A stretch of 64,000 nucleotides of DNA, taken from the NCBI GenBank assembly GCA_020859945.1, contig JAJBVG010000054.1:1-64000 (forward strand). The letters run 5' to 3'. The stretch comes from Clostridiales bacterium. Its GTDB lineage: Bacteria > Bacillota > Clostridia > Oscillospirales > Oscillospiraceae. Position numbers and translations under genes: made by a program. The notes below the pieces were generated by a model. The model ran no database searches and was not told the DNA's origin. It worked only from the letters and a program-made list of their open reading frames with translations. Numbering within the stretch: the stretch's first letter is position 1; each line of letters begins with the position of its first letter. Positions 2,405 through 43,835 of the stretch are shown one piece after another.

Positions 2405-4246
<1,842 letters not shown>

Positions 4247-4264
4247 CACAACGCAGAAAACCGC

Positions 4265-4293
4265 AAATGGCTGCCGCGTCGCGGCAGCCATTT
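4265..4293 (+). terminator. Hairpin after glmS
   Basis: A perfect 13 bp stem (AAATGGCTGCCGC with its complement) with a GTC loop starts 18 bases after the glmS stop. The T tract is weak (TTTCT). Confidence 0.65.
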
Positions 4294-4349
4294 CTAAACC
4301 CTATAGTTATCGCTTTTACTCAGCCCTTTTATATTTTTAACCGGAAACC

Positions 4350-4402
4350 CCTCCACCATGCTTCGCATGGTCCCCCTCCCCTTTCAGGGGCGGCAAGGGG
4401 AG
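4350..4402. repeat. REP-like palindromic intergenic element
   Basis: ACCATGC-TTC-GCATGGT forms a perfect hairpin (4355-4371). It is followed by CCCC-TTTCA-GGGG (4378-4390) and further G-rich bases. The twin-hairpin, C-rich layout resembles the short REP-type elements scattered between genes in gut Clostridia. Membership in a multicopy family cannot be tested from one window. Confidence 0.4.
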
Positions 4403-4490
4403 ATAGTGCTTATCGTTCGCTCTGCCTTTCTGCTCAACGGAGCAGATATTTCCCCAGTCACAAAACCAATGAAATGAAGGAGAAACCACC

Positions 4491-6682: not shown

Positions 6683-7153
6683 TCACCGCCGCCGCTTGCC
6701 GGTCAACGTATCCGCCGTGACCTTATAGACGCAGGTCCGCACCAGCGTCCCCGCGTCATAGGCGGCGTCTCCCTCCCAGCCGTAGTGGGACATCAGGGCG
6801 TCCAGCCCCTTTTGTTTCTCTGCCGGGTCGGTCAGGAACTCCACCCGCCCGGCACCGATGACGCTCTCGAACGCCGCACCCCAGCGGCAGGGCACGTCGT
6901 CCCGCAGCACCTGAAAGGCGCAGTCCATCTCGAAGCACACCTGGGGATTTCGCCGCAGAAGGTCCAGCTTGCGGCCCTCCCCGGCGGAGTGGAAGTACAG
7001 CGTCAGTCTGCCGCCCTCCGCCGACCATCCAAAGCTGAGAGGGACCACATAGGGGGTTTCCCCGTCCGTCATAGCCAGGCGGACCACTTGGCAGCGCTCC
7101 ACAAGGGCGCAAAGTTCCTCAAAGTCTGTGATCTCCCGGTCTTTCCGGCGCAT
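6683..7153 (-). CDS. Pyridoxamine 5'-phosphate oxidase (PPOX) family flavoprotein
   Basis: A 156-residue protein of the split-barrel FMN-binding fold (PPOX class, 5-nitroimidazole-reductase-like group). It is recognised by VRLAMTDGETPYVVPLSFGW near residues 22-42 and the pattern LYFHSAGEGRKLDLLRRNPQVCFE around 55-77, where His and Gly-Arg contact flavin phosphate in relatives. AFESVIGAGRVEFL continues the barrel. Start is the ATG at 7153 with AAAGGAG. The likely role is an uncharacterised FMN- or F420-type oxidoreductase; the substrate is unknown. It is divergent from the DUF4830 gene. Confidence 0.85.
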   Translation of the reverse strand: MRRKDREITDFEELCALVERCQVVRLAMTDGETPYVVPLSFGWSAEGGRLTLYFHSAGEGRKLDLLRRNPQVCFEMDCAFQVLRDDVPCRWGAAFESVIGAGRVEFLTDPAEKQKGLDALMSHYGWEGDAAYDAGTLVRTCVYKVTADTLTGKRRR

Positions 7154-29477: not shown

Positions 29478-30107
29478 ATGAAACAGCTGCTGCTGACCGC
29501 CCTGTACGTCCCCGTTTACCTGCTCTGGTTCTTCTGGCTCCAGCAGCGCCCGGTCCATCACGTCTGGATGTCCGCCCGGCTGGACGACTACATCCCCTTC
29601 TGCTCTGTGTTCGTCATTCCATACCTGCTGTGGTTCCTGTTTGTGGCAGGGACGGTGCTTTCCTTCCGCCGCTGGCCGGAGGAGTGCCTACGGCTGTGCG
29701 TGTATCTCTGCGTCGGGATGACGATTTGCCTGGCCATTTACACCTTGTTCCCCAACGGGCAGCAGCTGCGCCCGGCGACCATGCCGGACGACAGCCTGTG
29801 TACCCGGCTGGTGTTCCTGGTCTATGAGATGGACCCGGCGGTGAACTCCTGCCCCAGCATCCACGTTTACAACACCCTGGGGGTCTGGAACGCCATCACC
29901 CGCGCCCCCGCCCTACGGGGCAGACCGCTGGTGCAGGGCTGCGCCGGGGTGCTGTCGGTGGCAATTATCCTCTCCACCCTGTTTTTGAAGCAACATTCGG
30001 TGGTGGATGTGGCCGCCGCGCTGCTGCTGGCCGCAGGGATGGAGCGGGCGGTCTACGGCGGTCTCCGCCTGCCCCGCCGGGCAAAGGCGGCACAGATCAG
30101 TGGTTAG
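29478..30107 (+). CDS. PAP2-family membrane phosphatase
   Basis: 209 residues from the ATG at 29478 (an in-frame ATG at 29442 is possible). About six membrane helices. The phosphatase motifs are degenerate but recognisable: NSCPSIHVYNTL (active-site loop with His) and KQHSVVDV (second His and Asp), as in inositol-phosphotransferase/PAP2_3 relatives. The likely role is dephosphorylating a lipid phosphate or undecaprenyl-type carrier; the substrate is unknown. Its last 4 bases overlap the converging gene. Confidence 0.8.
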   Translation: MKQLLLTALYVPVYLLWFFWLQQRPVHHVWMSARLDDYIPFCSVFVIPYLLWFLFVAGTVLSFRRWPEECLRLCVYLCVGMTICLAIYTLFPNGQQLRPATMPDDSLCTRLVFLVYEMDPAVNSCPSIHVYNTLGVWNAITRAPALRGRPLVQGCAGVLSVAIILSTLFLKQHSVVDVAAALLLAAGMERAVYGGLRLPRRAKAAQISG

Positions 30108-30517
30108 TCGCTGAGTTTCCCCTGCTCCCGCAGGATTTCCTCCACCAGGGCGACGCACTCGTATACCATGCCGTCGCAGTGGGCCTTTTGGTTGGTGTTG
30201 CCCTTGTCCCGGTCGATTTTCAGCAGTTGGGCGCACTCGACGCAGTTCTCGTGGTTGGCCCGGAGCCGCCGGAAGTAGGCACCGATGGTTTTGCCGTCCT
30301 CCACTCCGTAGAGGCCCAGCACCATCAGGCCGCCGGTGATGGCGCCGCAGACGCTGCCGCACTTCATGCCGGAACCGAAGTTGGAGGAGAGTTTCAGCGC
30401 CAGCTCCCGGTCCAGCCCCGCCTCCTCCGCAAAGGGCAGCAGCACCGACTGGGCGCAGTTGTAGTGAGGGGAGACGGTCTCCCGGAGGGCTTTGGCCCGT
30501 TCGTAATAAATGCTCAT
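30104..30517 (-). CDS. C_GCAxxG_C_C family redox protein
   Basis: 137 residues with the Cys pattern that names the family: YNCAQSVLLPF (about residue 20), GSGMKCGSVCGAITGG (about 48-63), then NCVECAQLL (about 90) and a late AHCDGMVYECV. The second Cys pair sits in a helix-start Gly-rich turn. Members are thought to bind a metal or transfer electrons; function is not established. ATG with AAAGGAG and a good promoter upstream. Confidence 0.88.
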   Translation of the reverse strand: MSIYYERAKALRETVSPHYNCAQSVLLPFAEEAGLDRELALKLSSNFGSGMKCGSVCGAITGGLMVLGLYGVEDGKTIGAYFRRLRANHENCVECAQLLKIDRDKGNTNQKAHCDGMVYECVALVEEILREQGKLSD

Positions 30518-30616: not shown

Positions 30617-30681
30617 GGCGCGTTGCTGTACAAAAACAGAGAAAGGAACCACATTGCTGTGATTCCCTTCCCTTACAGTCT

Positions 30682-30772
30682 GGTTCTTTGGCGGGTGTGC
30701 CTGTCCCCGCATCTCTTGCTAACCCCCACGAGGAGGTGTGTGGCGACACTAAAATCTCCACCTCAAAGAGCC
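30682..30772 (-). repeat. Module B of the tandem structured element
   Basis: 91 bases closed by GGCTCTTTG/CAAAGAACC. Stems: GTGG/CCAC, ACCTCC-TCGT-GGGGGT, GCGGG/CCCGC. It aligns with module A at GAGGTGG, CACRCC and GAGATGCGGG. Confidence 0.65.
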
Positions 30773-30787
30773 AATTTATCGAGTGAA

Positions 30788-30813
30788 GGGCCGCCAGCAA
30801 GCGGCCCCTTTTT
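30788..30813. terminator. GC hairpin between the two modules
   Basis: GGGCCGC-CAGCAA-GCGGCCC. It has a T5 run on the + strand side only, so it is a + strand terminator shape or an internal stem of the minus-strand RNA. Confidence 0.5.
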
Positions 30814-30817
30814 AGCG

Positions 30818-30914
30818 GGCTGTTTGGCGGGCGTCGCCTCTCCCGCATCTCTCAGGTTTCCCTTGTCATGCCATCGGCGTGTGGTCGCAACGAAATTTAC
30901 CACCTCAAACAGCC
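30818..30914 (-). repeat. Module A of the tandem structured element
   Basis: 97 bases closed by GGCTGTTTG/CAAACAGCC. It contains an AGG-GAAA-CCT tetraloop hairpin and GCGGG/CCCGC with an inner GGC-GAC-GCC. Confidence 0.65.
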
Positions 30915-30928
30915 ATTGCTATGGGAAC

Positions 30929-30957
30929 ATTATACCAGCGTTTCCGTTCTTTCGCAA
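30929..30957 (-). promoter_or_regulatory. Promoter of the candidate structured RNA
   Basis: Minus-strand TTGCGA, 17 bp spacer, perfect TATAAT. Confidence 0.65.
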
Positions 30958-31062
30958 CTACATCTGTCCACAGTTTTCCCGTCAAACTCCTTCGCTCCCC
31001 CGCACAATTTTAATCCAACTTTAACTAAAATCTCTTGTGGCGCAAGGCTTTTTCGCCTTTTA

Positions 31063-31118: not shown

Positions 31119-31454
31119 TTACACTATATCATCCTCCCCCTCACTCAGATACCCCCACATCATCGCCAGAAACTCCCCTGTCCCTGGCTTACGGGCCAGC
31201 GGCCTCCCGGCTATCTCCACCATGTACGCGGGGTTGGCCTCCCATGCCCGGCGTACTACGGTGCGCAGGCTCCGCTCCACTGCCGTCCAGCGCTTCCCGG
31301 TGGCCTGACCTACCGGCGTGTAGATGCACCGTACAAGGGCTGTCAACCGTGCCGGGTCCTCCAATGTAAGTTGGATTGCAAGGCGCATCTCACAGTAGCC
31401 GGTGTATGTGGGGCAAATGCCCAGGCGGTGCAAAGTAGTTTCGATTTTGTTCAT
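31119..31454 (-). CDS. Orphan Spo0A C-terminal DNA-binding domain protein (prophage)
   Basis: 111 residues from the ATG at 31454 (GGGAGGT upstream). Almost the whole protein aligns in pattern with the Spo0A effector domain: TLHRLGICPTYTGYCEMRLA matches the opening helices, and VERSLRTVVRRAWEAN matches the recognition segment VERAIRHAIEVAW. KPGTGEFLAMM matches the closing KPTNSEFIAM. The phosphoacceptor receiver domain of Spo0A is absent. It is the last gene of the prophage, after the lysozyme terminator, with its own promoter and 0A boxes. It probably binds 0A-type sites and could modulate host sporulation genes or prophage genes; direction of effect is unknown. Confidence 0.88.
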   Translation of the reverse strand: MNKIETTLHRLGICPTYTGYCEMRLAIQLTLEDPARLTALVRCIYTPVGQATGKRWTAVERSLRTVVRRAWEANPAYMVEIAGRPLARKPGTGEFLAMMWGYLSEGEDDIV

Positions 31455-31494
31455 AGCTATTACCTCCCGAAATATTTCAGGTTGATAATAAACC

Positions 31495-31525
31495 ATTTTA
31501 GCCCTCTTTTGTTAATTTTCGACAA
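31495..31525 (-). promoter_or_regulatory. Promoter with a perfect 0A box
   Basis: Minus-strand TTGTCGAA (31518-31525), an exact Spo0A box, overlaps a TTGTCG -35. The -10 TAAAAT (31495-31500) is 19 bp away. Long spacing with a box over the -35 is the layout of Spo0A-activated sigma-A promoters. Confidence 0.65.
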
Positions 31526-31669: not shown

Positions 31670-32335
31670 TCAGCCGCAGTCAGCCAGCAGCGCGCCCCAA
31701 GTGTCCGGCCCACAGATGCCGTCCACGGTCAGCCCCTTGGCCGTCTGGTAGTCCTCCACGGCGGTCTGGGTCTTGGTGCCAAGCTTGCCGTCGGTATCCA
31801 AATTCCGCTGAATGGCGGTGTTCAGCAGGATTTGCAACACCGTGACCTGCTGGCCCTCGTCGCCTTTTCTCAGTGTGTCCATGTCCTTTGTCACCTCCGT
31901 CAGATAAAGTTCCCGCTCCGCTTTGCGGCGGGTGGTCAGGCCGGACAGCACTTTGCCGCCTGCCTTGTTGTAGAGCAGCATGGCTTCCCCAATCTCAGAG
32001 ATGGAGCGGTCTTTGCACAAGGTTTTGAGGTTGTCCTGCCCGCAGTTGAACGCAAAGCTTGTCAGTGCGGAGCGCTGGTTTTCGTTCATCTGCGCCGTCA
32101 GGGGAACATAGGAGGCGTTGTTGGCGTAGGCCCAAAATTTCGCCACGTCGGAGGTCAACAGGCTGTTGGCCTTGTTCTGGGTAATGGTCATGCCCTTGCA
32201 GACCGCTTTGCCGTCCACCTTTCCGGTGTGCCCATACCCGATGGTCCAAACCCCGGCGCTGTCTTGGTAGGCGGTCAGCCGCAGTCCCTCAAATCGTTTG
32301 ATGAGGGCAAGACCGGCCGCGTTGATGGTACTCAT
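31670..32335 (-). CDS. Phage endolysin: GH24 lysozyme with peptidoglycan-binding domain
   Basis: 221 residues. The GH24 (T4-lysozyme-like) domain covers about 1-140, with catalytic Glu in IKRFEGLRLTAYQDSAG (residue 16) and TIGYGHTG (about 31-38, Thr and Gly conserved) and the closing TTRRKAERELYL. A PG_binding_1 domain (about 153-220) has the repeats VTVLQILLN and LGTKTQTAVEDYQ and VDGICGPDTW. Cuts glycan strands at the end of lytic growth. Last late gene before the terminator. Confidence 0.95.
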   Translation of the reverse strand: MSTINAAGLALIKRFEGLRLTAYQDSAGVWTIGYGHTGKVDGKAVCKGMTITQNKANSLLTSDVAKFWAYANNASYVPLTAQMNENQRSALTSFAFNCGQDNLKTLCKDRSISEIGEAMLLYNKAGGKVLSGLTTRRKAERELYLTEVTKDMDTLRKGDEGQQVTVLQILLNTAIQRNLDTDGKLGTKTQTAVEDYQTAKGLTVDGICGPDTWGALLADCG

Positions 32336-32342
32336 TTGTAAC

Positions 32343-34370
32343 TCACTCCTTTTTGGACTTATACCCGACTTCCATATAGGCGTCGGCGTCGTTGGTGATG
32401 ATGGTGGTGCCGTTGTAGGCTTTCAGCGCCAAAAATGCGGCGATTTCGTCAGCGGTGAGGGCGGTTTCAACCGGCTCGGACAGATACGTCATTACCGTCA
32501 TGGGATTTTCGGCAAGGTATGCTTTCCATTCGGCCAAATCATTGTTGCCTATTTCGCTCTGATCGGTCAGGGCGTATAGGTAAAAATTATTAACTCCAAT
32601 CCAAATTTCTGCAGTTAGCGTGTGTGCTTCCGTTGAGATAGGTAAAGCGCTGCAATACCCTGCACGTCTATCCGCCTTTTCGGGGAGAATCTCACATACA
32701 TATCCCCCATATAGCCCTGAATAGTTGTAAATAAGCCAATCCTCGTCTCCGTTTAGATTCGCGCTCCATATCCACGCCCGGTATGTGCCCGTACCATCCG
32801 CATTAAGCACAATCTCATCTGCAATCCACTGCTGCCCATTTGCGTCCGTGTAGTTGCCGCCGGAGGATACAGGGATACCAGGTAAGCCGTTTTCAGCGGC
32901 CAAAATCAGTGTCTGGCTGTTGCCGCTGCCGTCGGCCACTGTGACTGCAATCTCGCCGCTGTCTGCCGCGCTGGTGATTTCCTGCGGGTAATCGGGGGAC
33001 GGCGACACTACGCCGCCAGTGTAGGGTTCCCAGTCAGCGGCCGCATCCGCCACCATCAGCCGGAATCGTAAATAAATCTCGGCGTCAACACTTGTCAATG
33101 TCATATTGATTGCCAGCGGCGAGCTGCCAGCTGTTGCAACATAAATATAGAAAGAAGCTACGCCGTCCTGCTGCAACGTTTCTGGTGTAAAAACTTTTCC
33201 ATCAAAAACAGTTGTGGGAGCCAGAAACCTATATGAAAGATTGCTGGAGCTGTTCCCCGTTGGTGTGCCCTGAATTGTGATTATCCCGTTTTCTGCATCT
33301 ATAATGGTTTCCAGCTCGTATGCGGTCATGCTGGTGCAACTGCTAAGGTCCAGCAGTTGCGCCCCCGTTGTCGTTGCCTGCGTACTCCAGCCGTACAGCA
33401 CCAGGCTGTTAAGCGGCTGCGCCGCTGCATCCGCCACTTCAACGCTCACACCGCTGGCGGTTTTGTCCTCATACAGCACCCCCCCAGCTGCGACCAGCTG
33501 GGACAGGTAATAGTCCTCCCGCATGATTGGTGTGGGAAGGTCGCCGTCGTAGGTGCCACACAGGGCAGCAAGATAGTAGTCCTTTCGGGTGATGGGGGCA
33601 GGGAGGGTGCCGGCATAAGTGCCGCACAAATAGGCTAAATAGCGGTCTGCCCGTGTGATAGGCGTGGGCAGCTCGCCGTCCTCCACCGCAGGGGTCCAGC
33701 TGGTGGCGGTATCCCCAATCTCCAGCTTGGCTTTCCGCACCTGCATGGAGTACAGGCTATAGTCAAAGACTTCGATATAGAATCGTGTGGTGTCGTCGAT
33801 GCTGCCGGAGCCGCTGGAGAAATAATCATCCGTCAGCGTGACTGTTCTGCTGATGCGCTGCCAGCTGTCGGACAAAGTGACCGTCCGAAAGTCGATGTTG
33901 CGGTACAGTGTTATTGTGTTGCTGTCCGACGTGCAAAGCACAAGCCGCACGATGCACCCCCGGCTTGTAGATGCGTTGATACTTGCATAGTCGTCCGCAC
34001 GAATATCGAGGGACAGCGTTACCGTTTGTCCGCGAAGTGAGGAAAACTGGATGGGGTCGCGCCCATCAATGCAGTGCCAACCCAGTGTGTCTGTCGCCGC
34101 CCAGGTCGCCACTGTGTATCCCTCGTCGTCTGTTGTAAGAGTGATAACGTCCTTGTCTATGAGCCACCCGTCCATCGTCCGGGTGTTGGGCAGGTAGTTT
34201 CGCCCACGGACGATTTGCCCGTCGGCAATGGAATCATTTGCAACCAGCAGATACAGCAAAAATAAGTCTTCCCGCGTGATGGGCGCTGGCAAGTCGCCAC
34301 TGTATACCCCACACAGAGTTGCCAGGTAGCAGTCGGCCCGCGTGATGGGTGCGGGCAGGCTGTTACTCAT
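32343..34370 (-). CDS. Phage tail fibre / receptor-binding-like protein
   Basis: 675 residues. Five copies of a short LPxPITRxDxYLxxL motif lie at about residues 5, 27, 232, 253 and 274, a repeat used in tail fibres to link oligomeric segments. Between copies 2 and 3 is a jelly-roll-like carbohydrate-binding module (RNYLPNTRTMDGW to LEIGDTATSW), encoded by DNA nearly identical to part of the gene at 35576-40666. The C-terminal half is a second beta-rich region. It overlaps the holin gene by 8 bases and probably contributes to host adsorption, although it sits inside the lysis block. Confidence 0.75.
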   Translation of the reverse strand: MSNSLPAPITRADCYLATLCGVYSGDLPAPITREDLFLLYLLVANDSIADGQIVRGRNYLPNTRTMDGWLIDKDVITLTTDDEGYTVATWAATDTLGWHCIDGRDPIQFSSLRGQTVTLSLDIRADDYASINASTSRGCIVRLVLCTSDSNTITLYRNIDFRTVTLSDSWQRISRTVTLTDDYFSSGSGSIDDTTRFYIEVFDYSLYSMQVRKAKLEIGDTATSWTPAVEDGELPTPITRADRYLAYLCGTYAGTLPAPITRKDYYLAALCGTYDGDLPTPIMREDYYLSQLVAAGGVLYEDKTASGVSVEVADAAAQPLNSLVLYGWSTQATTTGAQLLDLSSCTSMTAYELETIIDAENGIITIQGTPTGNSSSNLSYRFLAPTTVFDGKVFTPETLQQDGVASFYIYVATAGSSPLAINMTLTSVDAEIYLRFRLMVADAAADWEPYTGGVVSPSPDYPQEITSAADSGEIAVTVADGSGNSQTLILAAENGLPGIPVSSGGNYTDANGQQWIADEIVLNADGTGTYRAWIWSANLNGDEDWLIYNYSGLYGGYVCEILPEKADRRAGYCSALPISTEAHTLTAEIWIGVNNFYLYALTDQSEIGNNDLAEWKAYLAENPMTVMTYLSEPVETALTADEIAAFLALKAYNGTTIITNDADAYMEVGYKSKKE
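33715..34199. repeat. 485 bp duplication, copy 1
   Basis: Matches 38181-38665 at a constant offset of 4466. A handful of mismatches occur in the first 70 bases and I see none in the remaining 400 or so. Confidence 0.9.
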
Positions 34371-35575: not shown

Positions 35576-38500
35576 TTAGCCCTCCATTTTTTCTATCTTT
35601 GTTTCTAAATCAGAGACCCGGTCCTTGAGTTTTTGTACCTGGTCGATCAGCAGGCCCACAAACTCGGTGTAGATTAGGCCGTATTCCTTATCAAATCCAT
35701 GGTATCCGTTGCCTTCCTCATCGGCTTTGACTGGGCTGATTACAAGCCCCGCAAAATCCTCTGCGGTCAGGCCACTGTCCAGCAGGGCTTGTTCCGTCGT
35801 CTGCGCTCCCAGACCGATGTGGAACCGTCCGGCGTTGCCATCGATGTAGCGGAACGCTTTTGGCTTCAATCGGTCAAAAAACGCGTCGTAGGCGTCCAGA
35901 CTTGTCCAGTCCTTCTTGATGCGCTCGTCAGATAAGGTGGTACTGCCGGAACTGTTTTGGTATTTTACAGTACGGCCACGAATGACAGATGTCGTAGAGT
36001 AAGTGCTGGAACCTGCATAGCCGAAGTAAGCTGTCAGGCCATCGGTGTCGCGGTAAATCAGGTAATGAGTGCTGTCTGTATCTGCCTCGTCTGCCCAGTA
36101 GCAGGACATTCCCGCAGATACATCTGATGCTGCATAGTCCACAAAATGGCCATATGCGTAAACATGGTTACCACATTCAATCGAGCTTCCAAACGATGCC
36201 TTTGGCTGAACGTAGAAATATCCAGAATCACTATCGAGCGTAAAGCTTTTACACGATATTTCAGAAGCTCCAATAGGAAGTTCAACGCTCAGCATTCCGC
36301 CCATGGTCGAGAGCGCTGTATACGTCTTATCGTCGTCTTCGCTATACATCTTCAAAGTGTTTCCAATGGTTATATCCATGGCGTACAACTTTCCAGCACC
36401 ATTGACCCGGAACGGGGAATCGGTGTAATCGTCGTGACTGGTACCGCCAGCCGCGAAAACCGTGCCGCCGGTGTCTGAGCTGGATGGGACGCGCATGACG
36501 ACAGTGCGCCCGTTGGACCCGGTTGTATAGATTTTTTCATCCGTTACTGTCCATCCGCCGATGGTGGACGTAACGCCGGTGGCGGTGTGCAGCTCGCCGT
36601 TGATGGTAACATTACCGTCTGCGTCCAAACTGAAATTATCGCTGTCAATGACGATTTGTCCGCTGGTCAGCTCGATTCTGTCGGCGTTGGCAGAGAGTTT
36701 TGCCACGCCTTCATCGTCCACGGTCAGCGCCAGCTTCGCCTCAATTTGGTCGTCCGTATCCTCTGGGGCGGGAGACCAATCTGTGGCCACATTGCCAGTT
36801 TCCAATTTAGGTTTGCGGATAGAGAGCGTGTTCGCGGTGTTTTCTTTGCGGCTGAACACCTGGATCGCGTACACGTATTGAGAGTAATCTGTGGTGCTGT
36901 AAGCAGTCATTTCAGATGCTGCACAGCCGGTAAGATTGGCTGTTACACGCACCCACGCGCCATCCACATAGTCTGCTGTATTGAATATTTTTGTGCTGAA
37001 CAAGTATCCAACCGCAGCAGTTCTGGTCCAGGACGTTCCGTCATTGCTCCCGAAGATGCTAAAGCTTAGCTGATAATGACCTGGCGCTGTTGCGAGGTCA
37101 TCAGCCTTAACGTCCGCGCTAAAGGTAAGCTCCCGCTCTGCGAAAGCGTCTCCAGACGCGTCAATCGCCGTGTAGAAAGTAGCTGCCCGGGATACGCCGT
37201 CGCCGGTTACTGTTAATACGCCGAAGCCGTCTCCATCCTCAGTGCGGGTAAAATAGGTGGCGTCAAAAGCCGTTTGCCCCGCCACGTTGGTCAGTTCTTT
37301 GGTGTTCAGCAGGTAGTTGCGCCCGCCCACGGAGATGTTATCGATTTTCGTTGCCAAAAGGGTCAAATCGCTGCCGGTGATGGTGCCGCTGTCCAGGTCG
37401 ATGAGCAGCCCGGTCCCCGCATCCGCGTCGTAATTGGAGGATTTAAGGATACCAGCGGTCAGCTCTCCCACGTCGCCAGTAATGGCGGACAGTTCGGTCA
37501 CGCTGAGGTTCCCGGCCTCGATGGTTTTGGCGGCGATTTTGTCCCCGGTAATGGTCGCGGCGGCGATTTGTGTCGCTGTGATGGTTTCGGCAACCAGGTT
37601 ATCCCCCGTGATGGTCTCTGCCGCGATGAGGTCACCGGTAATGGTTCCAGTTTTGATCAAGTCTGCCGTGATGGTCCTGCTGGCAATGTTGGAGGCCGTG
37701 ATAGTTCCAGCTGCGATTTCGTTTGACGTGATGGTTCCGGCCACCAGATTCCCTGCGGTGATGGTGCTGGTGGCGATGTTGTCGCCGGTGATGGTTCCGG
37801 CTGAAATTTGCTCTGACGTAATGGTTCCGGCCTTGATTTTTGCTGCCGTGACTGCGTTGGCTGCCAGTTTGTCGGTGGTAACGGCCCCAGAGGAGATTTT
37901 GCCCGCTGTGACTGCACTGGCAGCAATCAAGTTTGCCGTGACCGCCCCATCTGCAATGGCGTCTGTGCCAAACGGGGCCAGTGTCCACGCTTCGCCATTC
38001 CAGTAGTACATGGCGTTGTCATTGGCGGTGTCGAACCAAATATCCCCTGTGACGTAGTCGGTCCCACTGGGGACCGTGTCAGCATAATAGGATGTCGTCT
38101 TGCCGTTTACAATGGTGATGACTTCGTCAATGGCCGTTTCTGCATCTTCCGGGGCAGGAGACCAATCTGTGGCCGCCGTTCCAATCTCCAGTTTGACTTT
38201 CCGCACCTGCATGGAGTACAGGCTGTAGTCAAAGACTTCGATATAAAATCGTGTGGTGTCGTCGATGCTGCCGGAGCCGCTGGAGAAATAATCATCCGTC
38301 AGCGTGACTGTTCTGCTGATGCGCTGCCAGCTGTCGGACAAAGTGACCGTCCGAAAGTCGATGTTGCGGTACAGTGTTATTGTGTTGCTGTCCGACGTGC
38401 AAAGCACAAGCCGCACGATGCACCCCCGGCTTGTAGATGCGTTGATACTTGCATAGTCGTCCGCACGAATATCGAGGGACAGCGTTACCGTTTGTCCGCG

Positions 38501-40666
38501 AAGTGAGGAAAACTGGATGGGGTCGCGCCCATCAATGCAGTGCCAACCCAGTGTGTCTGTCGCCGCCCAGGTCGCCACTGTGTATCCCTCGTCGTCTGTT
38601 GTAAGAGTGATAACGTCCTTGTCTATGAGCCACCCGTCCATCGTCCGGGTGTTGGGCAGGTAGTTCCTCCCGCCCACGGAGAGGTTGTCTACGGCTTCTT
38701 TAGCCAAACCCGCCTGTTCCAGCGCGGTGGCAATATCCGCCGTCACCTCATCAGAGAGAGCGCTTGCCCCGTAGACCGCTTTCACCCACTCGCCGCCGTC
38801 CCAGTAGTACATGGCATAGCCATTCGCCGTGTCATACCAAATATCGTTGACTGCATAAGTCCCCCCGCTGGGAGCTGTGTCGGAGTAGTAAACGGCGTTT
38901 TTGCCGTCTGCCGTCTGCTGGGCGGTAGTGATGGCACTGGTGATGTCCTCAGACAGGTTGGTAGCCGTGATGGTCCCGCTAGCAATTTGGCTGCCGTTGA
39001 TGGTTCCAACGGTCAGGTTGGCGCAGTTGAGGTTCACCACGTCAATGGTCCCCGCGTCAATGGTCCCGGCAGTCAGCTGGTTGGCGGAGATAGTCACACC
39101 GTTCAGCGCGCCGGTGATGTAGCCGTCCACCACGGTCATGCTGGTCAGCAGCCCAACGTCGGCAAACAGCGTACCTACGCTCTCCACGCTCACGTTTGCC
39201 AGGTCAATGGTGGCATAGGCGGCCTTGATGTCGCTGGCAGTAATATAGTTGGCGGTGAGGGTGCTGGTCGTGACGTACTTTGCGGCAATATCCGTTGCGG
39301 TGATGTAATTCGCAGTCAGTGTATCCGTTGTAACATACTTAGCGGAAATATCTGTTGCGGTGATGTAGTCAGCTTTCAGTGTGTCCGTAGTAACATACTT
39401 AGCGGAAATATCTGTTGCCGTGATATAGTTGGCAGTGAGATACTCTGTGGCGACATACTTGGCCGCGATGTCGTTTGCTGTGATATAGTTGGCGGTCAGG
39501 TAGTCAGTGGTGATGGCTTTAGCGGTCAGCTCCGTGATGCTCGCCCGTATTGCCTCCAGGCTAGTTGCCGTTACCTTTTTTGTCACTATCAGCTCTGCGG
39601 CGGTCTTTTGCACTGCGGCGGCCAAAGCGCCGGTAAAGCCCGCCTCCTGCTCTGCCTCACTCTCCCCCGGCGCGGTGATGGTGGTCATCAGCCCGCCGTC
39701 GAAGGTGTGTTCCACCAGCAGGCAGGCCACTGTATGGCTCACGCCCTCCGCGTCCACGGCGGAGATCACGTCCCCTGCCTCCAGCCGAATGTCGCCCATG
39801 TCCAGAGGGACGGTGCCGGGCCGGTAGGTGAAGCCGGTGATTTGCGGGGCCATGATGTCAAACAGCGCCTGGGTCATATAGGGATTGGACAGGGTCAGGT
39901 TTGGCGTTCCATAGGTGTAGGACACGCCCTCCACCTCGTTGCCGTCGTCGTCGGTGCCGCTCTCGGAGACGATGACCTCCACACCGGTGACGGTAAAGTC
40001 GTAGTCGCTGAACTCGAACATCTCCGTGGTGCGGTCTGCGTCTATCTCCGCCGTTACCTCGTTGGTAAACGGCTGAATGATGATGCCGCCGTCGCTGCTT
40101 TCTGTGGCGAAACCGCCCAGCAGCCCCGCGATGTACATCAGGGCCTCCCGGTGCAGCAGTCCGTCCATGCTGGTTTCGATGTTCAGCGCAAGGGCGGTAC
40201 TGTCGCAAGCGCTGGCATCGATGCTGACCCCGATTTGCTCCGCGATTTCGTCCAATGCGCTCTGCACCGTCTGGGGCCAGCCGTTGTCCGACCAGTAGCC
40301 GCCGCCGCATTTGCTGCTCAGCCTGCCCAGACCGGTGAAGGTGGTAGACCCCACGCTGGTGGCCACGTCGGAGGCAGTGTAGAAACCCACGGTACAGTAT
40401 TCCACCGTGCCGTCGGTCAGCTCCACGCCGATTTGCAGCTCTAGCTCCTGGTTCTCCAGCAGCGTGGGGCAATCGTCGATGGTCACGGTGATGTAGGAGG
40501 AGTAGACGTTGCCCACGGAAAAAGCGCTGTCGCCGCAGGCCCCCTTGTTGACCTTGACCTCTTTGACCTCGCCCTCTACCGTTTCGCCGTTCAGCAGGAA
40601 CCGGGCGCAGAGCTTCCGGGCATTGCTGCCCATCTGTTCGCCAAATTCCGTCGATGTGGTTATCAT
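35576..40666 (-). CDS. Phage tail tip/fibre protein with S74-like C-terminal chaperone domain
   Basis: 1696 residues. The N-terminal 370 residues look like a baseplate-hub or Tal-type domain (NARKLCARFLLNGETVEGEV; ITGFTYRPGTVPLDMGDIRL). Two long series of short repeats follow: A-x-Y-V-T-T-D/x-L-T-A-N-Y-I-T-A-x-D-I (about 390-480), and A-x-T-I-T-x-x-x-I-A/G-x-G (about 910-1070), suited to a beta-helical shaft. Carbohydrate-binding-like modules lie near 670-840 and 1110-1250. The C-terminus (about 1570-1690) has LSDERIKKDW with the Ser-Lys pair of peptidase S74 intramolecular chaperones and a final coiled coil. Probably trimeric, self-cleaving fibre for host contact. Confidence 0.85.
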   Translation of the reverse strand: MITTSTEFGEQMGSNARKLCARFLLNGETVEGEVKEVKVNKGACGDSAFSVGNVYSSYITVTIDDCPTLLENQELELQIGVELTDGTVEYCTVGFYTASDVATSVGSTTFTGLGRLSSKCGGGYWSDNGWPQTVQSALDEIAEQIGVSIDASACDSTALALNIETSMDGLLHREALMYIAGLLGGFATESSDGGIIIQPFTNEVTAEIDADRTTEMFEFSDYDFTVTGVEVIVSESGTDDDGNEVEGVSYTYGTPNLTLSNPYMTQALFDIMAPQITGFTYRPGTVPLDMGDIRLEAGDVISAVDAEGVSHTVACLLVEHTFDGGLMTTITAPGESEAEQEAGFTGALAAAVQKTAAELIVTKKVTATSLEAIRASITELTAKAITTDYLTANYITANDIAAKYVATEYLTANYITATDISAKYVTTDTLKADYITATDISAKYVTTDTLTANYITATDIAAKYVTTSTLTANYITASDIKAAYATIDLANVSVESVGTLFADVGLLTSMTVVDGYITGALNGVTISANQLTAGTIDAGTIDVVNLNCANLTVGTINGSQIASGTITATNLSEDITSAITTAQQTADGKNAVYYSDTAPSGGTYAVNDIWYDTANGYAMYYWDGGEWVKAVYGASALSDEVTADIATALEQAGLAKEAVDNLSVGGRNYLPNTRTMDGWLIDKDVITLTTDDEGYTVATWAATDTLGWHCIDGRDPIQFSSLRGQTVTLSLDIRADDYASINASTSRGCIVRLVLCTSDSNTITLYRNIDFRTVTLSDSWQRISRTVTLTDDYFSSGSGSIDDTTRFYIEVFDYSLYSMQVRKVKLEIGTAATDWSPAPEDAETAIDEVITIVNGKTTSYYADTVPSGTDYVTGDIWFDTANDNAMYYWNGEAWTLAPFGTDAIADGAVTANLIAASAVTAGKISSGAVTTDKLAANAVTAAKIKAGTITSEQISAGTITGDNIATSTITAGNLVAGTITSNEIAAGTITASNIASRTITADLIKTGTITGDLIAAETITGDNLVAETITATQIAAATITGDKIAAKTIEAGNLSVTELSAITGDVGELTAGILKSSNYDADAGTGLLIDLDSGTITGSDLTLLATKIDNISVGGRNYLLNTKELTNVAGQTAFDATYFTRTEDGDGFGVLTVTGDGVSRAATFYTAIDASGDAFAERELTFSADVKADDLATAPGHYQLSFSIFGSNDGTSWTRTAAVGYLFSTKIFNTADYVDGAWVRVTANLTGCAASEMTAYSTTDYSQYVYAIQVFSRKENTANTLSIRKPKLETGNVATDWSPAPEDTDDQIEAKLALTVDDEGVAKLSANADRIELTSGQIVIDSDNFSLDADGNVTINGELHTATGVTSTIGGWTVTDEKIYTTGSNGRTVVMRVPSSSDTGGTVFAAGGTSHDDYTDSPFRVNGAGKLYAMDITIGNTLKMYSEDDDKTYTALSTMGGMLSVELPIGASEISCKSFTLDSDSGYFYVQPKASFGSSIECGNHVYAYGHFVDYAASDVSAGMSCYWADEADTDSTHYLIYRDTDGLTAYFGYAGSSTYSTTSVIRGRTVKYQNSSGSTTLSDERIKKDWTSLDAYDAFFDRLKPKAFRYIDGNAGRFHIGLGAQTTEQALLDSGLTAEDFAGLVISPVKADEEGNGYHGFDKEYGLIYTEFVGLLIDQVQKLKDRVSDLETKIEKMEG
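38181..38665. repeat. 485 bp duplication, copy 2
   Basis: Encodes the same binding module inside the tail tip gene as copy 1 does in the fibre-like gene. Confidence 0.9.
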
Positions 40667-41045: not shown

Positions 41046-43835
41046 TTAGGTCACCAGTTCGCACTTGCCGCCGTTGGCGCGGGTGTTGTTGTTGGTCTTT
41101 TTGATGAAATACTTCCGCAGGCTCTCCGGGTCCAGCCGCACCAGGTCAGCGGATTGCAGGAAGGCCAAAATCTCTTTCAGCAGCGTTTCCACTGCCTCCA
41201 GGTCTTGAGCGCTTTGGGCCAGGCTGTTTGCCTGGAGCTGCTGCTCCTTGGCCTGACTGTCGGAGGTGACAGCGGCCAGTCGGGGCGTGTTCCGCGCCGC
41301 CAGACCGGAGAGGTCTGTCACACAGCTGGAAAGGCCGCTCTGCACGGCCTCCTGGATCATGTTCATCAGTGTACTGGCCCCGGAGACCACCTCCTGGCCC
41401 GCTTCCCCGCCGCCCAACAGGTTGCCGCCCGCTGCGCCGAAGATGGTCGCACCATTCAGCAGCATGGGGTTGTCCATGGCCTTTTTGTACCACGAAACAG
41501 AGAACTTGGGCACCGATGGCGGGGACAGGCTGAAACTGCCGGTGATGCTCACATGGGGCAGCTTCAATTTGGGGAGCGACCAGCTAAAGTTGAACTTCTC
41601 CTTCACCGCGTTAATGGCGTTGGAAACGGTGGTCTTGACGCTGCTCATGATGCTGGTGAACTTGTTCTTGATAGCGGTCAGAATGTTGCTGACCGTGTTT
41701 TTCGCTGTAGTCAGCGGGTTGGTAATGGCCGTTTTAACGGCGTTGAACACTGTGGTCACTTTTGTCTTGATGCTGGTGACCGCGTTGGTGAACACCGTCT
41801 TGATGCCGGTCCAGATGCTGGACAGTTTCGTTTTGACGCTAGTGAAGATGGTGGTGATGGTGGTTTTGACGCTGTTAAATCCGTTGGATACTTTGGTCGA
41901 GATGGATTTCAGGGCATTGTTGAAGGTCGTCTTGATTTTCGTCCACGCCTTGGAGATGGTGGTTTTGACGGCGTTCATCGCGCTGGAAATGGTGGTTTTG
42001 ATGCCCTCAAAGGCGCTGGTGATACCGCTCCACAGCTTCTGCGCCGCTGCCGTAAGGGTGTCCCAGTTTTTGTAGAGCAGGACGCCAACGGCGATGATGG
42101 CAGTGATAGCTGTCACCACGACGCCGATAGGGTTTGCAATGAAAGCCGCCTGCAAGAGCGCCCACACACTGGAAGCCATACTAAACGCAGTGGCCAGCCC
42201 GGAGACGACCCCCACGAGTTTTTGTATTGCTGTGGAAATGGTCACGACGATTCCAACCGCCGCAAGAACATTGAACAGGCCGGTGAACACCGCCTGATTC
42301 TTGCTGATGATGTCGGCTAAGCCGTCCAGGATGGAAGTCAGCCCCTCCAGTGCGGCGATGATCACTCCGCCGGTCCAAGAAGCCAGCGGTTGCAGCCATT
42401 GCTCCCAAATCCACTGTGCGGTTGGCGCAAGCGCCTCCAGCACTGCTGTCAGCACGTCAAAGGCGGCGGCCAGCAGGTTCAGCACCGCAGGCACCGCCGC
42501 TGAGATGGTCCATGCGCCCAGCGGCGCAAGCGCATTGTTCAGAATCCACGTCCCCGCGCTCTGTACCACGGCGGCAAAGGCGGAAAACGAGTTTTTCAGG
42601 TTGTTCCATGCTGCGACAGCCGGAGCCAGCAGCGCTGACATCTTTTTGGAGAGCTTGCTTACGCTGGTTTCCGCTTCCTCTGCCGCGTCGGTCACGCTGT
42701 CCAGGGCGCTGGTGTCCACGCCAGAGGTCCCGGCGGAACCAGTGCCGCTGCCTGTATCCCCGGACCCGCTGCCGGAGCCGGAGGAATCGGAGGAGCTGTC
42801 GTCGCTGACCCGTGTGATCTGGTCGAAGCCCTCCAGGGAACGTTTCAGGGCGGCGGCGGTCTTGCTGGCCTTGCCCAGGCTCTTTGCCGCGCTGCCGGTG
42901 CTGTCCCCCAGACCGGAGATGGCGCTGGTTCCGTCGGTCAGGCTGTCCGCCAGAGAGGAGGCGCTGCTTGCCGCGCTGGTCAAATCGGAGCTGACGGCAG
43001 ATGTGCCGCCGCTGGCGCTGCCGAACAGGGCCTCGATCAGGGAATTAAAGGCGTTGGCCAGCTTGACGATGGAGGCCATCATGGTGTTGATGGCTTTCAG
43101 TGCCGGAGTCAGCAAGTTGATAAGCCCCTGCCCCACCGCCGCCATAGCGGACTGGACCTGCAACGCCAGCAGCCGGGATTGGTTGGCCCAACTGTCCTGT
43201 GTCCGGGCAAAATCGCCGGTGGCGTTGGAGAGCTGGTCCTGAATGAAGGCATAGCGCAGACTGACCTTTTCCGCCTCCGTCATGGCAGAGGTGGTCTTGC
43301 CAAACCCGTTTGCCAGGGCGTAGGCGTCCAGCGCGTCCTGGGTCATGACGATGCCCAGGTCTTTCAGTGTCTCCGTCTCACCGGAAAACACGCTTTTCAG
43401 CTTGGTATACGCCTCATCCTGGGTGATGTTGTAGAAGGAGGCCACGTCGCCCGCCAGACCGGTCAGGGTGGTGGACATTTCGTAAGCCTCTTTTTCTGTG
43501 AAGCCGAACGCCTCCGCCATAGAGCCGAACATACCGGTGTACTGCTTCGCCATGGTCTCGGAGAGGCCGAAAGAGGCGGCGGCAGACTGTGCAAACTCGT
43601 CTACCTTGTCCGACATGGTGGAGAAGGTCACGTCCACCACGTTCTGCACTTCCTGCAAATCGCTGCCCAGTTCAATGCACTGTTTTGTGAATGAAGTGAT
43701 AGCCTTGACAGAGAGAGCCGCCGCCAGGGTGGAGGCCGCTTTCTTGGCTACGCTGTTCAGTTTGGTACTGAACGCCGATGTATCCAGCGTCAGCGCAAGG
43801 GCAACGCTGCCCACATTGTCGCTGCTGGTGCTCAT
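41046..43835 (-). CDS. Phage tail tape measure protein
   Basis: 929 residues. Sets tail length and helps DNA passage. N-terminal tape-measure core includes SFTKQCIELGSDLQEVQNVV and MSTTLTGLAGDVASFYNI. Hydrophobic segments lie about 490-580. A repetitive helical stretch (about 620-730) has 11-residue spacing of W/F and K-T-T/I-S, as in SIWTGIKTVF and TVFNAVKTAI. 929 residues would predict a tail of roughly 140 nm by the usual rule. The ATGA start overlaps the frameshifted chaperone gene. Confidence 0.95.
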   Translation of the reverse strand: MSTSSDNVGSVALALTLDTSAFSTKLNSVAKKAASTLAAALSVKAITSFTKQCIELGSDLQEVQNVVDVTFSTMSDKVDEFAQSAAASFGLSETMAKQYTGMFGSMAEAFGFTEKEAYEMSTTLTGLAGDVASFYNITQDEAYTKLKSVFSGETETLKDLGIVMTQDALDAYALANGFGKTTSAMTEAEKVSLRYAFIQDQLSNATGDFARTQDSWANQSRLLALQVQSAMAAVGQGLINLLTPALKAINTMMASIVKLANAFNSLIEALFGSASGGTSAVSSDLTSAASSASSLADSLTDGTSAISGLGDSTGSAAKSLGKASKTAAALKRSLEGFDQITRVSDDSSSDSSGSGSGSGDTGSGTGSAGTSGVDTSALDSVTDAAEEAETSVSKLSKKMSALLAPAVAAWNNLKNSFSAFAAVVQSAGTWILNNALAPLGAWTISAAVPAVLNLLAAAFDVLTAVLEALAPTAQWIWEQWLQPLASWTGGVIIAALEGLTSILDGLADIISKNQAVFTGLFNVLAAVGIVVTISTAIQKLVGVVSGLATAFSMASSVWALLQAAFIANPIGVVVTAITAIIAVGVLLYKNWDTLTAAAQKLWSGITSAFEGIKTTISSAMNAVKTTISKAWTKIKTTFNNALKSISTKVSNGFNSVKTTITTIFTSVKTKLSSIWTGIKTVFTNAVTSIKTKVTTVFNAVKTAITNPLTTAKNTVSNILTAIKNKFTSIMSSVKTTVSNAINAVKEKFNFSWSLPKLKLPHVSITGSFSLSPPSVPKFSVSWYKKAMDNPMLLNGATIFGAAGGNLLGGGEAGQEVVSGASTLMNMIQEAVQSGLSSCVTDLSGLAARNTPRLAAVTSDSQAKEQQLQANSLAQSAQDLEAVETLLKEILAFLQSADLVRLDPESLRKYFIKKTNNNTRANGGKCELVT

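Follow-up and report, generated by a model that had tools for sequence, protein, structure and literature searches.

Two structured RNAs beside a prophage attachment site

The window (the whole stretch of 64,000 nucleotides that was analyzed) carries on its minus strand, at positions 30631-30957, a promoter, a structured RNA module, a hairpin with a poor T tract, a second structured RNA module, and a strong terminator, in that order. The promoter (30929-30957) is of the sigma-70 type, with a -35 element, TTGCGA, at 30957-30952, a spacer of 17 nt, and a -10 element, TATAAT, at 30934-30929. Its assignment draws on the sequence, on conservation of the -10 element in an alignment with the related genomes G001 and G031, and on the family-wide promoter statistics given below. 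Module 1 (30819-30913) and module 2 (30683-30771) are separated by the poor-T hairpin (30786-30809), and module 2 is followed by an intrinsic terminator (30631-30674), a 14-pair hairpin of -19.5 kcal/mol succeeded by TCTGTTTTT. An earlier note on this DNA had proposed two structured modules under one TTGCGA-17-TATAAT promoter with a terminator-like stem after the second, and the sequence and the Rfam matches bear out each part. The modules lie where that note put them, but at 95 and 89 nt by Rfam covariance match they are slightly shorter than the 97 and 91 nt that it gave.

Located 3' of the RNAs is a host gene (30104-30517, minus strand) for a C_GCAxxG_C_C putative redox-active protein (PF09719, 4.4e-23), and its synteny is common to the window, G001, and G031. 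On the other side lies a 19-bp prophage attachment core, AATTTTAATCCAACTTTAA (31006-31024), with a second copy at contig position 68525-68543; this direct repeat bounds a prophage of ~37.5 kb that extends past the window. The idea that the RNAs are a property of the prophage was rejected, as they fall outside the attachment core and are also present in G001 and G031, where the site is empty. Because both genomes combine an uninterrupted attachment site with the RNAs, we conclude that the RNAs are on the host side. Thus, an earlier placement at the prophage junction holds insofar as the RNAs adjoin the attachment site, but they are not in the prophage.

The near end of the prophage has features of its own. 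The last lysis gene encodes a lysozyme (31673-32335, minus strand; Pfam Phage_lysozyme, 5.7e-34), and between it and the attachment site is a gene for a protein with a Spo0A C-terminal domain (31119-31496, minus strand; 8.6e-21). Two further prophage proteins (32343-34370 and 35576-40666, minus strand) have in common a nearly identical stretch of ~150 aa, beginning GRNYLPNTRTMDGWLIDKD, and the 1696-aa protein of the pair contains long runs of ITATDIxAKYVTT-type repeats.

A known RNA family with a variable kissing helix

Both modules are skipping-rope RNAs, Rfam family RF02924. They score 51.9 bits (module 1) and 52.4 bits (module 2) against a gathering cut-off of 36.7, cover model positions 1-80 completely, and give an E value of ~1e-9 in each of two independent matches when the whole window is searched with the covariance model. 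The stems are those of the family, the scores are well above its cut-off, and no sequence difference sets the modules apart from it. The fold, which had earlier gone unrecognized, is not new. Matches to BjrC68 and mir-3173 fell below cut-off and were discarded as chance. The family is present in ~15% of the sampled Clostridia genomes.

The closing stem described earlier is present, but it has 8 bp in the Rfam model and not 9. The compensatory swap reported within it was seen again: at the fourth pair, one module has G-C where the other has C-G. The closing stem of module 2 contains a single C.A mismatch, at a position where the relative G031 has a C-G pair. Overlooked in the earlier note was a kissing helix of 5 to 6 bp between loop 1 and loop 3, formed by CGTTGC with GCGACG in module 1 (kissing class TTGC) and by GTGTC with GGCAC in module 2 (kissing class GTGTC). 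Rfam lists a pseudoknot with covariation for RF02924 (PMC7779021), and both modules contain it as this loop 1-loop 3 helix. Across the family, the middle letters of the helix vary from copy to copy (TGGC, TCCC, TACC, TACA, TGTC, TACG, TTGC, and others).

Sequence differences among homologs preserve the pairing. When 28 relatives were aligned, standard pairs filled 97.3% of the cells across the four helices, and 17 of 24 pairs, including 5 of the 6 in the kissing helix, changed on both sides. Covariation of this extent, kissing helix included, was reached by 0 of 500 shuffles. Moreover, the loops of a given copy fit each other far better than do loops exchanged among copies (mean score, 13.2 versus 9.2; standard deviation, 0.28; 66 distinct loop pairs), a fit that 0 of 2000 permutations attained. 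The RNA is also a transcription unit in its own right across the family. Among 196 distinct upstream regions, a sigma-70 promoter within 2 mismatches of 12 was found in 82%, versus 3% in shuffles, and a terminator-like hairpin lies 3' of the RNA in 58%, versus 1%. The early view of a stand-alone, phage-connected structured RNA with a dedicated promoter and terminator stands.

Skipping-rope RNAs follow PBECR nuclease genes

The surroundings of 93 RNA copies were read, and typically a gene on the same strand ends ~30 nt upstream, with its stop codon overlapped by the RNA promoter. In 8 of 10 sampled upstream neighbors, the product matched PBECR2 or PBECR3 above the curated Pfam cut-off (PF18810/PF18812), with E values down to 4e-31. 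PBECR denotes a phage-Barnase-EndoU-ColicinE5/D-RelE-like nuclease. In phages and mobile elements, the PBECR families have been described as predicted RNases that occur both alone and fused to MuF (PMC5512222).

For the converse test, the 393 Clostridia genomes that had been searched for the RNA were also searched for PBECR2 and PBECR3 domains. An RNA lay within 400 nt 3' of 46 of 66 domains, 45 times on the same strand; large polyvalent PBECR proteins in these genomes had an RNA beside them in 0 of 8 cases. Domains without a match were inspected. At the loci in G182 and G442 the RNA was plainly present by eye and had been passed over by the stricter filter, the RNA of the G418 PBECR3 locus was broken by an insertion, that of G269 was degenerate, and no RNA was seen at the G118 PBECR3 locus. 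As the PBECR3 toxins of G118, G269, and G418 keep intact catalytic residues without a good RNA nearby, an RNA in cis is not an absolute requirement. The insertion in G418 (locus L262, G418:C58 ~42797-43100) is ~190 nt long, contains inverted repeats, and sits in the middle hairpin of the RNA; the catalytic residues of the adjoining toxin are retained. In the genome survey, 41 of 87 RNA copies adjoined no PBECR gene, and two of these follow other small genes.

The toxin alignment alone was also used to fetch loci, of which 49 came from viral contigs and 80 came from genomes, and the RNA was sought behind the toxins with a covariance model built in this analysis. It was found 3' of the toxin on the same strand in 128 of the 128 loci with sequence past the toxin stop, a figure biased upward because the toxin query was made from RNA-linked toxins, and it began 29 to 32 nt past the stop in 98 of them. 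Annotated PBECR3/PBECR2 records with sequence after the gene, namely those of streptococcal phages, Brevibacillus, Sporosarcina, and Enterococcus plasmids, and a faecal phage, had the RNA in 6 of 6 cases at the Rfam cut-off. A stand-alone toxin with its RNA also occurs on a 7-kb plasmid. In the streptococcal phages, the toxin-RNA pair sits between the lysin gene and the attachment site; in the window, the RNAs are just outside the attachment site. A nucleotide comparison of the element gave one short match in phage records and none in plasmid records. A loose two-motif scan of viral contigs returned 120 loci, about the chance expectation, and was not used as evidence.

Several loci depart from the common arrangement. 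In L213 (G443:C6:70266-70755), the sole convergent case, a PBECR3 toxin gene and the RNA are on opposite strands with their 3' ends facing and a terminator hairpin region common to both. In L325, the toxin gene (4001-4414) and the RNA (6686-6782) are 2.27 kb apart instead of 30 nt, which suggests an insertion between them. In L252 and L257, a gene for a ~92-aa protein without a Pfam match ends 13 to 26 nt before the RNA, in the place of the toxin, and its product is possibly a further toxin or a protein partner. In L225 and L240, a 192-aa open reading frame, also without a Pfam match, ends ~58 nt before the RNA.

In the RNA-linked toxins, the conserved first-helix histidines and the Thr/Ser near the C terminus, which belong to the BECR active site, are retained. 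An AlphaFold2 model of the toxin (pLDDT 91.4) resembles BrnT, RelE, and CDI RNase toxins with a middling best Z score of 7.5. Foldseek found no match for the model in the PDB at an E value of 0.001, and the BrnT, RelE, and CDI toxins came out on top only in a second structural alignment (Z, ≤7.5). The toxin open reading frame exceeds 350 aa in 42 of the 128 toxin-fetched loci, and 3 of 3 long frames scanned from related loci combine Phage_Mu_F or Phage_min_cap2 with PBECR2; the window has none.

Kissing class and toxin C terminus covary

Toxin tails differ by the kissing class of the neighboring RNA. Nearly all toxins of class TGGC end in RYLRT-, those of class TGTC mostly in KYLRNK, and those of class TTGC carry ISAWKIS-RW. 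Over 107 pairs, the class was predicted from the nearest toxin, and below 75% overall identity the C-terminal 30 aa scored 0.51 and the preceding 85 aa scored 0.36. At <65% identity the values were 0.31 and 0.11. Shuffled data gave ~0.11. Shared ancestry accounts for part of the match between toxin and RNA class, and the excess in the C-terminal helix suggests a toxin-RNA interface.

Most loci carry one RNA, and an extra upstream RNA is found in only a few (G001, L413, L421, and L431). Where RNAs stand in rows of two or three, they are of different classes and 58 to 85% identical. The data did not point to active avoidance of repeated classes, as the ~17 repeat-free arrays represent a ~10% outcome at the observed class frequencies.

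Toxin loss at the window locus

At the same chromosomal place in G001, the order is RNA1, PBECR2 toxin gene, RNA2, and C_GCAxxG_C_C gene. Both the window and G031 lack the toxin gene and the RNA2 promoter, ~450 bp in all, at one and the same junction, which in the window is at 30772-30785 (minus strand). We infer from this alignment that the window tandem is an orphan antitoxin pair left by loss of the toxin between its members. Because its own promoter went with the toxin, module 2 would now depend on read-through, and as no promoter of its own is present in the window, transcription probably passes the inter-module hairpin, at least partly. We rejected a recent tandem duplication as the origin of the pair, since the modules differ in class and each is closer to copies elsewhere than to the other. 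Module 2 is identical to the G001 copy in a region that is otherwise ~91% identical. Module 1 is of class TTGC in the window and of class TCCC in G001 and G031, a change that affects both sides of the kissing helix. A second orphan RNA locus, flanked by an aminopeptidase-like gene and by a gene read as glnS, is common to G000, G031, and G020.

Discussion

How skipping-rope RNAs act may be read from the company that they keep. We think it likely that they are RNA antitoxins, or immunity RNAs, of the PBECR2/PBECR3 nucleases of phages and plasmids and that the window pair are orphan antitoxins. The putative toxins, which occur in phages, prophages, and small plasmids, are either stand-alone proteins of ~125 to 160 aa or C-terminal domains of a MuF/minor-capsid protein, and in the latter form, being made with the head proteins, may travel in the virion into other cells. 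The RNA would be transcribed from its own promoter over the toxin stop to its own terminator, giving constant protection to the lysogen or plasmid host. In its fold, a closing stem encloses the hairpins and the first loop kisses the last, and the RNA most likely binds the PBECR toxin directly and blocks the RNase site. Direct binding is suggested by genetic linkage and by covariation of class, and the variable kissing helix, read by the C-terminal helix of the toxin, probably decides which RNA matches which toxin.

What the window modules do today is a separate matter. They may be two orphan antitoxins that differ in class, were retained by the host chromosome when the toxin was lost, and would guard the cell in trans when phage toxins of the matching class arrive. 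By class, the predicted targets would be toxins with ISAWKIS-RW-NY tails (the TTGC type) for module 1 and toxins with KYLRNK tails for module 2. Alternatively, the modules could be decaying, functionless remnants of a lost toxin-antitoxin locus, a reading that we think unlikely but take seriously. The toxin is deleted, the promoter of module 2 is gone and its closing stem carries a C.A mismatch, and RNAs are being lost in G118, G269, and G418. Module 2, however, matches the G001 copy exactly within more divergent surroundings, and module 1 keeps its promoter, all of its stems, and a complete kissing helix despite the change from TCCC to TTGC on both sides. Moreover, the second orphan locus is conserved in three genomes.

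Perhaps, the RNA is not an antitoxin but a required partner of the nuclease, namely, a scaffold, chaperone, or packaging RNA that loads PBECR into the virion or guides cleavage. The many toxins fused to MuF/minor-capsid domains, as gauged by the 42 of 128 loci with long open reading frames, and the covariation of toxin and RNA classes would suit such a role. We consider it improbable, however, as orphan RNAs with an intact fold, and with a promoter where one is visible, are found in chromosomes without any PBECR2 or PBECR3, the RNA has a sigma-70 promoter independent of late expression, and the stand-alone toxin on a 7-kb plasmid also has the RNA. Less probable still is a regulator that base pairs with the mRNA of the toxin or other mRNAs, either a type I-like antitoxin or a general sRNA. 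The RNA is indeed compact, with promoter and terminator, and Rfam classes it as "Gene; sRNA," but it is encoded on the toxin strand and so is not antisense, its variable loops pair internally and leave little sequence for an mRNA, and the match to toxin residues falls in the C-terminal helix of the protein. Finally, tandem structured modules under a single promoter had earlier suggested an RNA that counts or senses something, but a sensor, riboswitch-like, or counting element is very hard to credit for a stand-alone unit that ends in a terminator with no regulated gene behind it and that is linked family-wide to an upstream and not a downstream gene. The evidence points instead to a toxin-neutralizing RNA, with the tandem representing two antitoxin classes that appear to have been joined by loss of a toxin gene.

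The antitoxin model resembles type III systems, but its toxin fold and gene order are new. In type III systems, structured RNA antitoxins act on endoribonuclease toxins, and ToxIN, CptIN, and TenpIN resemble the present system and its putative nuclease in having a toxin of endoribonuclease fold, pseudoknot-type RNA pairing, arrays of RNA units, and a connection to phages (PMC5086642). The type III array, however, is upstream of the toxin, separated from it by a terminator and cotranscribed, whereas here the toxin gene precedes the RNA, which has a promoter to itself. Moreover, the toxin here is a PBECR protein of BECR fold, with no ToxN-type match having appeared, and the units are 80 to 100 nt long in mixed-class arrays of 58 to 85% identity, whereas ToxI repeats are near-identical. 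A second parallel is AbiF of Clostridioides difficile phage phi027, a prophage-borne toxin with a neighboring structured RNA, RCd22, that neutralizes it in cis and in trans through direct RNA-protein contact (PMC12373285). Neutralizing contact was shown for RCd22 and is proposed here; the AbiF toxin, however, is Abi_2/HEPN-like, and its RNA belongs to another family and lies upstream of the toxin. MuF polymorphic toxins likewise have a C-terminal toxin domain on a MuF head protein and a small immunity determinant directly downstream (PMC5576092), but that determinant has been taken as a small protein, and here the downstream element is an RNA. A literature search by family name returned no functional study of skipping-rope RNA and no link to a toxin; the original description lay outside the search, and an earlier mention is therefore possible.

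If the antitoxin model is correct, an orphan RNA family gains a testable function, and a large phage-borne class is added to the RNA antitoxins, with a toxin fold, gene order, and specificity logic that differ from those of type III. A code between kissing helix and toxin helix, if true, would make RNA-protein specificity predictable from sequence and swappable. Bacteria retain orphan immunity proteins against polymorphic toxins, and the orphan RNA copies suggest that antidotes made of RNA are likewise retained against phage-delivered nucleases. We speculate, with rather more doubt than conviction, that phages inject PBECR toxins with the virion, that bacteria and rival phages gather mixed-class RNA arrays as a repertoire of immunity written in the kissing-helix/C-terminal-helix code, and that the window holds such an array. 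We note that the genome to which the window belongs, in which a search for PBECR2 and PBECR3 found none, carries three of the RNAs: the window pair and a third orphan.
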